Shown one piece after another: positions 6,657 through 64,000 of a stretch of DNA of 64,000 nt (position 1 is its first letter; the number at the start of each line of letters is the position of its first letter). The notes beneath the pieces are model-generated. The model saw only the letters and a list, made by a program, of their open reading frames with translations, searched no databases and had not been told where the DNA came from. A program made the translations under genes and the position numbers. Origin of the DNA: Macrolepiota albuminosa (Eukaryota; Basidiomycota; Agaricomycetes; Agaricales; Agaricaceae); the NCBI GenBank assembly GCA_027475525.1, contig JAMWFC010000130.1, positions 310,001-374,000 of the forward strand, written 5' to 3'.

Positions 6657-9600
6657 CTAAGGAGCGACATGTCCAGACACTCTGCCATCGCCTTCGTTGC
6701 TAGGGGTACTCCATGGAACACGAAGCACGCTACGGACACGGCCGCGCATCAAGGAACCACCACGTCCGCGCGTCGGAGTACTTCTGGGTCCAAGACCACT
6801 CAAGCCAGCAGAAGTTGTTAAGGGAGATGGTTGTGGGTGTTCCACGTGCAAGGCAGTAGGAAGCTCTTCGGCTCTGGAACTTATTAGTCGCTGAGAACGA
6901 CGTGGATCAAGGGTGATAAATTTGTCCCGCAATCGAGCGCTGGAGTTCGTGTGCACACAGGGCGGAATTGTAATTACATGTTTTTCAGTAAGTTGGGCAA
7001 CGGAAATCCGTGCTTGCGCTCTCTGAAGCTGTGGCACAGACCTTCTAGGGGTAGATACAAGAGTGGCGGACGATACAACGCGAGAGTCAAGAGACGAGGA
7101 AGGTGCTGCAATTCGGGTGGCTCCGCGAGCGGGGAGGGGATCAGTTTCGTCGACATTCATGTTGTCCGGCTCTTCCTGATAGGGGAAGCTCTCGCCCTCG
7201 TCTGGTTCAGGTGTCCCCAAATCATTATGATCGTCCTCGGCTTCTTGATCATGGGCCTAGAGCTGATCAGAACGGGTTAAGAGAGAAGGACATAATAATC
7301 TTACTTCTTGTTGGCCTTGAAGCGACACTGAGACCGACTCAGATGCTGGTACTGACTGAGCCGGTACTGTCTTTAGCAAGTCCAGCTTGGCAGTGAGAAT
7401 GATCTTCTCAGCTTCAACAACTTCCAGTCGAGTCCTGGCATTGATCAATTCGGAATCCATCGACTCCACTTTAGCTTTGTACTTGGTAGTCGAGACACGG
7501 GCTGCAGATAGAATGTCCTCTACAGACGCCTTATCCTGCCGCACCTTGTGCAATTCCTTCTCGGGGTGAGCTATTGTGCTTGGAAGGAAAGAACAAATAC
7601 CAACGTTCTTTAATTCTCGAACCTCATTTTCCCTTTCTTGAAGTGTCTGTCAAATACGACAAGTGTAAGCAAAGGCAGATCACAACAGAATGAGGTCAAA
7701 CTCACTGCTGACAATGACAAAGCAGTTGAGGAGTTTGTTTGCATAGCTGACAACTCGTTGCGTAACTGGTGAATGATATCGTCCTTGGACGAGAGCTCCG
7801 TCGAAGCTTCTTTTTTGATTTGCAAGACCTCAGAAGTGAGATCTTGAATGATACTATCCTTTGCCTCAGAAGCCTGATTGGCGGCTGCCTAGATAAGCTG
7901 ATTCAATAGGCGTGATTAAAAATAATTGAAAGGGGCCATACCTCCACCTGTTCTAATTCATACCTAATACGTGCTGATGACGCAGCTTCAGCATCAAGTT
8001 TGTTAGAAAGTTCGACTCGTGATGCTTGGACCTCATCCAGTTTTAATTTATTTTCTTGCAGCTCCGTGTCTTTCTCCAGAGTCATTCTAAGCAAGTTTTC
8101 GTTGGCTGCCTGAAATGCAAAGTTACAATGAGAAGGGATATATTATAGAACTATATACCTTTAAATTGAGTCTCATAGATTCAAGTTCGGCGTTGAAACC
8201 GGCCACGAGAGCATTTTTTTCGCTGTCAGTCGCTTCCAGTGCTTCTTGCAACTCTGAATTGGTGACCTTAAAGTTAGCTTCAAGCTCCGATAAGGACGCA
8301 GCTTCAAGTTTGAGCTTGGCGGAAAGTTCGACCCGACTTGATTCAGTCGCGTCTAATTTCAACTTATTTTCTTCTAGTTCCGCGTCTTTCACTTCAATTA
8401 TTTTAAGCAAGCTCTCGTGGGCTGTCTAAAGTGCAAAGCTACAATGAGAAGGGATTCCAACATAGAGTCAGTATGGAATGATTGACCTTGATAGATGCGA
8501 GTTCGGCTTTGAGATCAGCCACGAGAGCATTTGTTATGTTTAGCTGGTCTTCGAGCTTCACATTGAGGGCATCTTTTTCACAGCTCATCGTGTCCAAATG
8601 GGATTCCATGCTTTGCAATTCGTTTCTTGCTTCCTTGAGCTCAGCTTCAAGATCGGCCTTGAGAACATTCTTTTGAAATATCTCCTTGGCCGCCGTTTCG
8701 TTTGCGTGCTTTCAAGCAACAGCAAAAAAAGCCACAATGAGAAGGGATAGATCATAGAGCAAGTACCGATATATACCTTTAAATGGACTTTCATAGATGC
8801 AAGTTTGGCGATGAAACCGGTCGCAAGAGCATTTTTTTCGCCGTCAATCGCTTCCAGTGCTTCTTGCAACTCTGAATTGGTGACCTTAAAGTTAGCTTCA
8901 AGCTCCGATAAGGACGCAGCTTCAAGTTCGAGCTTGGCGGAAAGTTCGACCCAACTCGATTCAGTCGCGTCTAATTTCAACTTATTTTCTTCTAGTTCCG
9001 CGTCTTTCACTTCAATTATTTTAAGCAAGCTCTCGTGGGCTGTCTGTCTAATTTCAACTTATTTTCTTCTAGTTCCGCGTCTTTCACTTCAATTATTTTA
9101 AGCAAGCTCTCGTGGGCTGTCTAAAGTGCAAAGCTACAATGAGAAGGATTTCCAACATAGAGTCAGTATGGAATGATTGACCTTGATAGATGCGAGTTCG
9201 GCTTTGAGATCAGCCACGAGAGCATTTGTTATGTTTAGCTGGTCTTCGAGCTTCACATTGAGGGCATCTTTTTCACAGCTCATCGTGTCCAGGTGGGATT
9301 CCATGCTTTGCAATTCGTTTCTTGCTTCCTTGAGCTCAGCTTCAAGATCGGCCTTGAGTGTTTAAAACAGCGGTGAGAAGAGAACATTGTGACGATTGTA
9401 GAATACCATACTTGGAGAGCAACCTTCTCATCATTTAACGCAGTCCGCTCGCGTTGGAGAGCATCCCTATTATAAGAAATCACTTTGATGTCATGGTCTC
9501 TCTTTGCAATCTCTTCAAGCGCTTTGTTGAGCGCCTCAGTCGTTCCTTCTTTTTGGTTCTGAACAGCAATGGTAAGAGGAAACCGCAAAGAAAGATTGTA

Positions 9601-61408: not shown

Positions 61409-64000
61409 CCTGTCTACCCACCTCTCCCGTACGAACCTCCATATCTCCACCGCCACTGGGTCTCCGACCCGTCCCTCTACGACCTGGGGCCCTCAGCCAG
61501 CTGAGCCCCTCCACCCAATTTAGCCATGGCGCGACCCGTGGAGGTCCCCTCGTACCGGAGCATCCCCGGGGGCCTGCCGGAGACCCCACCTGTACCCAGT
61601 GGACCTCGCCCGATTCCCCCCAGCGAGGGCCCCTTTGCACCCACCCCCTACTACGGTTATCAGCGCCCCGTCCCCCAACCCCGAGAACCCCGAGGACCCC
61701 CCTACCCCGACTATCCCCCCCGTCATTACCTGGCCGCCGCTCCACCCGCTCGAACCCCTCCCTCGCCAATGGGACGACGGCGCCTCGAGGAGTACAAACG
61801 GCAACGGGACGAGGTACTCCGCTCCCTCAGGATCTCACCAGAGGACTTCGCGCAACGGACCAGGACGCTGCTCGTGGAATTCGGACACGACGACTTCAAA
61901 GGCACTCCGGAGGAATGGGCTCACTGCCTGGTCGAATTCGGGGATCGCCTGTGGAATTCGGACACGACGACTTCAAAGGCACTCCGGAGGAATGGGCTCA
62001 CTGCCTGGTCGAATTCGGGGATCGCCTCACATGAGGGGAACTCCCGGAGCAAACCATGGTAAAGTATAGGCGCAATACGATCCTCCGGGAAGAGTTACAG
62101 CAACTGCTCGACGAAGTCCACGCGTCCCCCTCCCCGCGGACCCAGGTCGCTCGATTCACATTCGATGGGAACCCCCGGAACCAGCCCCAGCAGTCCTGGC
62201 AGCCCCCACGGTCCCCACTCCGGAGCAACGACAACGGGAAGAACGGCAGAACGCCTCAGCCATATTAGGGTCCCTCAACCCGGCTGGAGGCCTCTTCGAT
62301 CAACTCGCGGCCCGCACAGTAGGCTTGTCAACTCGCCGCAGGGCTAACTCCGTCCCTAGTACCTTCGAGACCTGGGGACAGCCCCAAAGACCCCTGGAAC
62401 CCCTCCCGCGAACAGACAACGCCCGACCCCCGGCCCCGGCGAACCCCGGCAGACCCCGCGCGGACACCCCTAGCACGGACGACACGCTGTGCTACATCGA
62501 CGAGCTTACGCGTGGCAACAACGAACCACGTCCCGCGCCCGCGCCCGTCCCGGTACCGCCCCCTACGTCAGCCCCGGTCCCTCCGGAACGCAACTTCCGC
62601 CGCGATCCGCCACCCCACTTCGACCTACGAAACCCCCCGCGACCCCCGATACAAGCACGACCCTCCCGGGTTGAACGTCCCCCGCGCAACCCAGTACCCG
62701 ACCCAGCACCCGACCCCCCTCCGCCATACAAGCACGACCCTCCCGGGTTGAACGTCCCCCGCGCAACCCAGTACCCGACCCAGCACCCGACCCCCCTCCG
62801 CCCGACCTGACACTGCCGAACCCTCCCCGACCACCTCCGCCACCCCCAGCCGAACCTCGAGGACGACCCCCAGGCCCTCCACCCCCGCCACTCCCTGCGT
62901 GGAGACCCGGGCCCCCTCCTGGCAGGAACGAACCCCCTTGGGACAACGGGCCTCCCGGGCGTGGACCCCCAGGTGAGCCACCCGGAGGAGGACCTCCCGG
63001 CGGGTGGGGTCCCGCCCTTGGTGCTTTTCCTCCTCAAGGAGGGGGGGGTAATCACTATTACTACTATTACAATGCTGGCCCCCCTCCCCGCAACGCTGCC
63101 GGACCGGACGACGCTCGCGACGCCCTCGCCCGCGAAGGACGACTGGACATCCAAAAGCCCAACGCTTTCACGGGCCGGGACCCCCGAAAATGGCGTACCT
63201 TCCTCACTCAGTGTCTCAATACATTCCAGGCAAAGCCGCTCACGTTTCAGGTTGACAGCTCCCGGGTGGCCTTTGCCGCGTCGTACCTCCAGGGGATCGC
63301 CTTCGATCACTACACGGCCCTCATCCAGTTCGATCCCAACAACCCGGCACTCGCTCGCTGGCAAGCCTTCGTCGACGAGTTCTCCGGGAAATTCGGGATA
63401 TACGACACCGTGGCCGAGGCCGAGGACAACCTCTTCAACCTCCGGATGCGCTCTGAAGAACGTTTCACTACCTTCATCGTACGTTTTGAAAAGGAAGCTT
63501 ACGAGACAGGTTGGAATTACAGCGCCCTCCAGTACGCCCTCCGCCGCGCCCTCCCACAACGTATCAAGGACGTCCTCCGACTCGCCCCGAAACAACCCTC
63601 CTACGACGGGTACAAGGCCCTTGTCATGCAGATCGACCAACGCTATTGGGAAGACCGCAGCGAGTATTCGAATTCCCGACCCCCCTGGAACCCTAGAGGA
63701 GGACCCCCTTGGCCCTCCGGCGAAACCCCCAACCCCCAAGGTCGAAACCCCGGTCCCCCCGCGTTCCCTGGCGGCCGACCCCCGGTGAGTCGCGGCCCGC
63801 CCAATGCTAACCCCAGCAGCGGCGCCCACCCCCAGGCCCAACTCAACGCCGCCATGGCCGCCCACGACCCGAGCAACGTGCCAAGCCCCGAGGAACCCCC
63901 GGAAGACCCCAAAGACTTCGACTTCGACGACAAACGGGACGAGGAGGCCCTCCGAGCCAACCGGCTTCAAAAGAAGGGACGACCCTGGATCGAAGTCCCG
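61409..64000 (+). pseudogene. Element D Gag, main part, partial at window end
   Basis: Continues the 32 codons at 46388. In-frame TGA codons at 61502 and 62032 (inferred CGA) and an indel between 62060 and 62220 interrupt it. Domains: a Pro-rich N-terminal region (MARPVEVPSYRSIPGGLPE), EEYKRQRDEVLRSLRISPED, FGHDDFKGTPEEWAHCLVEF, a long Pro/Arg/Gly-rich stretch (62400-63050), a His/Tyr run near 63050, then the capsid: ALAREGRLDIQKPNAFTGRD, GIAFDHYTALIQFDPNN and RFEKEAYETGWNYSALQYAL. It ends within KKGRPWIEVP before the zinc knuckle. From 63,070 on the frame is intact, unlike the B copy. Confidence 0.85.
61874..62802. repeat. Two 77-bp tandem duplications in D gag (assembly artefacts)
   Basis: 61874-61950 recurs at 61951-62027, and 62649-62725 recurs at 62726-62802. 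Both shift the Gag frame. Confidence 0.92.

Follow-up and report, generated by a model that had tools for sequence, protein, structure and literature searches.

The 64,000-base window analyzed here, positions 310,001 to 374,000 of contig JAMWFC010000130.1 of Macrolepiota albuminosa (designated C24, in an assembly of 100,137,612 bases and 129 contigs), contains 30 direct tandem repeats with a period of 77 bases, and it is almost certain that these duplications are artefacts of assembly and not a real feature of the genome. An earlier note on this DNA, made from the letters alone, had suggested that pieces were joined without removal of an overlap equal to the k-mer length of an assembler. The idea of an untrimmed overlap is supported by the fixed length of the repeats, which is also a common k of assemblers, the near-identity of their copies, their spread through mostly unrelated DNA, and the single-copy counterparts found at every site compared, and further by a reading frame that is whole in three homologous contigs and by an excess of forks at the repeated 77-mers. 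The present results also refine it, in that the join, with left and right taken along the contig as written, is in most cases at a fork on the right and in most cases leads onto the rarer branch.

Period-77 repeats in the window and beyond it

In a scan of the window for periods of 10–1000 bases and match runs of at least 25, period 77 gave 30 runs, the runners-up being periods 695 (3 runs) and 618 (2 runs), and a period-77 direct repeat was located at each of the 30 starts in the earlier list. When an exact tandem duplication is defined as one whose match run is at least as long as its period, the window holds 29, 28 with period 77 and one with period 105. The description of the repeats as thirty exact 77-bp duplications therefore stands for the period at all sites but for exactness at only 28, where runs of 77–80 bases represent a 77-base unit present twice plus 0–3 extra matching bases. 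In the other two, at 52335..52486 and 59935..60087, the second copy is 75 and 76 bases long, respectively, having lost 2 bases and 1 base about 18 bases before its end. The units, which had been called unrelated, are mostly so; the exceptions are the unit at 46596, which is the same 77-mer as that at 60398, and the unit at 8969, which has a third, single occurrence at 8351. The density of repeats is about 1 per 2 kb, and the occurrence of 28 perfect 77-base repeats with one period in mostly unrelated sequence is judged to be beyond any chance model.

The phenomenon extends beyond the window. Twenty stretches of 10 kb on 5 contigs, scanned for periods of 20–400 bases and match runs of at least 25, contain 21 exact tandem duplications, 20 with period 77 and one with a period of 124 bp. 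Seventeen of these stretches were not selected for homology to the window, and they hold 16 of the 20 period-77 duplications, or about 1 per 10 kb. A very rough extrapolation from these 16 duplications in 17 loci, which are clumped and come from 5 of the 129 contigs, gives some nine thousand duplications in 100 Mb and about 0.7 Mb of nonexistent sequence.

Natural tandem duplications and minisatellites also consist of head-to-tail copies, and both copies of each 77-base unit are present in the assembled sequence, as they would be if a cellular process generated duplications of a fixed length of 77 bp throughout the genome, mostly in repeated DNA, at places that are rarely shared, and recently enough for nearly all copies to be still identical. 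Such a process is nevertheless very improbable: the lengths show no spread, and inspection by eye of the list of 30 sites, with no formal test, reveals no common border sequence. A natural repeat in the window provides a direct comparison. The 105-bp tandem repeat at 28250–28518 has a match run of 164, and part of its unit is present in three copies, spaced by 105 bases, in C24 and in three other contigs (C73, C82, and C89); it thus recurs with the same spacing in homologs, whereas the 77-bp repeats mostly do not.

Counterparts that lack the duplication

Twelve of the 30 sites (8969, 11407, 13952, 14404, 18096, 30734, 53451, 53867, 58145, 58423, 58763, and 59102) were compared with copies in the same assembly, and at all 12 a closely similar counterpart without the duplication is present, which argues against real duplications as well. 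The two flanks of the window sequence match the counterparts in pieces whose overlap is about 77 bases (77–79 on C73). For the first 30 kb of the window, the counterparts are on C73, C89, C90, and partly C82. The main pieces of C73 are 99.1–99.8% identical to the window, and none of the duplications at 8969, 11407, 13952, and 14404 is present there; C73 also carries a duplication of its own that is absent from the window (position 5285 of sampled locus L026). In terms of individual sites, all of which are given without strand and with the match run where this exceeds 77, the repeats at 8969..9122 and 14404..14559 (run 79) are single in C73 and C90, those at 11407..11560 and 13952..14105 are single in C73, C89, and C90, and that at 18096..18250 (run 78) is single in C73 at 99% identity. 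The repeat at 30734..30887 is single in C68 (97–99%), C93 (95–96%), and C114 (93–94%). Duplications common to diverged copies were also considered as a class and were dropped, as most such copies are duplicated elsewhere and the appearance of a common site is mimicked by an ungapped match.

The site at 11407 lies in a minus-strand open frame. As 77 is not divisible by three, a duplication inside an exon shifts the frame: C73, C89, and C90 have a single open frame of 173 residues across this region, whereas in the window the repeat splits the frame into pieces of 152 and 93 residues. The earlier note took this frame for the last exon of an Spt5-like gene and held that deletion of one copy restores it; the single-copy contigs agree with the second point. 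The neighbouring frame at 12895–13716 encodes an Spt5-NGN domain and gave a single match in a protein search, 41% identical, from Arthromyces matolae; the match does not reach the frame at 11407, and the 93-residue piece has no Pfam match. The two frames are likely to be parts of one gene. The Spt5-NGN region (window 12500–13900) belongs to a family, with matches of 76–82% identity on several contigs besides the near-identical ones. A search of Rfam gave nothing at its gathering thresholds.

Twenty-two of the 30 sites are located between two long terminal repeat (LTR)-like stretches, 46484–47610 and 60286–61410, with 99.3% identity over 1,127 bases, and eight are outside. An open frame at 54916–56334 has RNase H matches above the Pfam cut-off and a reverse transcriptase match below it, and parts of this retroelement are present in dozens of copies in the assembly. 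The high density of repeats in a multicopy element is also in keeping with an assembly artefact. The concentration of sites in one LTR-to-LTR stretch, together with the identical duplications in its two LTR-like ends, at 46596..46750 and 60398..60552 (both run 78), would be compatible with duplications inherited within a retroelement subfamily. As a general cause, inheritance of this kind is contradicted by the eight outside sites and by the single-copy counterparts, and it too has a very low probability. The repeats at 53451..53604 and 53867..54020 are both single in 26 copies at 98–100% identity among those listed (40 of 721 candidates were scored), and the 77-bp duplications of other copies are mostly at other places. 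At the six element sites compared, other copies have either one unit or a duplication at another place, and 59102 is the one site in common. Among sampled element copies with the exact 77-mer, the repeat at 58145..58299 (run 78) is single in 14, that at 58423..58578 (run 79) in 7, and that at 58763..58916 in 13, and the repeat at 59102..59256 (run 78) is single in 10 sampled copies and common to one on C78. The remaining sites, in addition to the two with shortened copies, were located by the period scan. Seven are 77-bp units present twice without extra matching bases between the LTR-like ends or beyond them (48228..48381, 49367..49520, 51090..51243, 52675..52828, 54378..54531, 59470..59623, and 61874..62027), as is an eighth at 62649..62802; in the others the run is 78 (47668..47822 and 56236..56390), 79 (48071..48226, 57155..57310, and 57579..57734), or 80 (54817..54973).

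Forks at the repeated 77-mer

If the repeated unit is a vertex of an assembly graph, another copy of the 77-mer should continue with another base. A fork was accordingly scored where another copy of the same 77-mer continues with a different base, in a sample of 68 loci and 323,776 bases in which each place in the genome was counted once and overlapping loci were trimmed. The sample contains 73 exact duplications, of which 36 are testable, the same 77-mer being present exactly and as a single copy at another sampled place, and 37 were left out for want of such a copy; the controls are 58,561 77-mers that are also present in a second locus. It should be noted that 20 retroelement copies in the sample were hand-picked, many for matches that span a site, which favours carriers of duplications; they were not picked with forks in view. 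A right fork is present at 22 of the 36 testable duplications as compared with 934 of the 58,561 controls, and, where there are at least 2 single-copy homologs, at 20 of 24 as compared with 801 of 41,835. In the window, right forks are present at 11407, 13952, 53867, 58145, 58423, 58763, and 59102. Earlier runs, in which the overlaps between L026 and L030 and between L023 and L031 were untrimmed, gave right forks at 20 of 28 duplications and, when identical contexts were counted once, at 21 of 34 as compared with 969 of 63,999 controls. The repeated units usually end at points of divergence between paralogs, and a cell could not sense such points, which is a further argument against real duplications.

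The forks are also directional. Taking the loci to be oriented like their contigs, the assumption behind the left and right counts, the 36 testable duplications comprise 19 forked only to the right, 2 only to the left, 3 in both directions, and 12 in neither, and the lean of 19 to 2 corresponds to a two-sided sign test probability of about 0.0002 (calculated by hand, for sites that are partly dependent, the element copies being related). The control forks are symmetric (756 right only, 731 left only, 178 both, and 56,896 none). At right forks with at least 3 homologs, the duplicated sequence takes the rarer branch, defined as one followed by fewer than half of them, at 12 of 14 duplications as compared with 126 of 703 control forks; an earlier run gave 14 of 17 and 139 of 723.

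These features are most simply explained if the assembly includes pieces from a k-mer graph built with k = 77, by an assembler or another graph tool, where adjacent pieces share 77 bases. Overlaps in SPAdes graphs equal its k, and 77 is among its usual values. At a branching 77-mer the path would continue, usually along the less common of the two branches, and the next piece would be added with its full first 77 letters, untrimmed, so that the 77-mer at the fork was written twice; the reads themselves would then hold a single copy. Where the DNA is unique, the alternative branch could belong to an allele or copy that is missing from the assembly. The doubling could have arisen during assembly, hybrid bridging, gap filling, or polishing. 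The right-hand bias suggests a process that moved through the contig in its written direction, perhaps once scaffolding was complete. One possible though doubtful form of the artefact is that a later k-mer-guided polisher or gap filler, working from left to right, inserted a 77-mer where the graph path and the draft disagreed. The 19 to 2 bias in the written direction, the bias to the minor branch, and the majority of forks at which no duplication is present are consistent with such a tool, and the 100-N gaps in the window and in L025 suggest that scaffolding came earlier; however, the duplications that are common to homologous places fit the reuse of graph edges at least as well.

Several observations weigh against the interpretation of the repeats as untrimmed overlaps. 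At 3 of the 12 sites compared, a counterpart with the duplication is also present (8969 and 14404 on C89, and 59102 on C78), and duplications are further shared between 46596 and 60398 and between L012 6404 and one place on C73 (L059 295). Reuse of one graph path would explain these shared duplications, but so would inheritance, and they are a point in favour of real duplications as well. The copies differ in four of the sampled period-77 duplications, by one substitution at L044 378 and at L049 75–228 and by an indel of 1–2 bases at 52335 and 59935; these small differences are possibly polishing edits. No fork is present in the sample at 12 of the 36 testable duplications, including 53451, which has 8 homologs, and in 2 the fork is on the left only. 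The majority of forks are not accompanied by a duplication, so that some further condition is needed. Four duplications outside the chosen homologous blocks were examined individually: L009 2999 has a single-copy counterpart with a right fork, L012 6404 is the shared duplication already described and has no fork, and for L015 6384 and L018 6449 the matches listed include no second exact 77-mer, so that a fork at these two places would need an unassembled allele or copy.

Precedents and practical consequences

Exact direct repeats with the length of an assembler k have a precedent in the description of terminal repeats in the CheckV paper (PMC8116208), where many are of 55, 77, and 99 bp and these lengths are ascribed to the k of the assembler. 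The repeats described there are at the two ends of one contig and reflect a circular template, whereas those of the present assembly are tandem, internal to contigs, and numerous. The passage on contig ends in the Unicycler paper (PMC5481147) describes the removal of overlaps created by SPAdes; overlaps of this type between graph contigs must go before the contigs are joined, but here they have apparently been left in a finished assembly. No paper describing tandem duplications of length k inside contigs came up in the literature searches made for this analysis.

The repeats carry no biology but can break gene models, and their weight for users of the assembly is a practical one. Before the assembly is used for gene models, counts of tandem repeats, the integrity of retroelements, or divergence measured from indels, the duplications should be corrected or masked. 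A scan for exact periods is also a cheap test of quality for any assembly.

Two further features of the region may be recorded. A gap of exactly 100 N is present at 30333–30432 of the window and another 100 N in L025, an indication that gaps of constant size were inserted during scaffolding. The part of the window from 4000 to 30300 has counterparts of up to 99–100% identity on C73, C89, C90, and partly C82, and a nearby piece, L012 6254–6707, has two copies, inverted relative to each other and some 50 kb apart, on C73, C89, and C90; together they are reported here as a large block, repeated or allelic, that includes inverted repeats.

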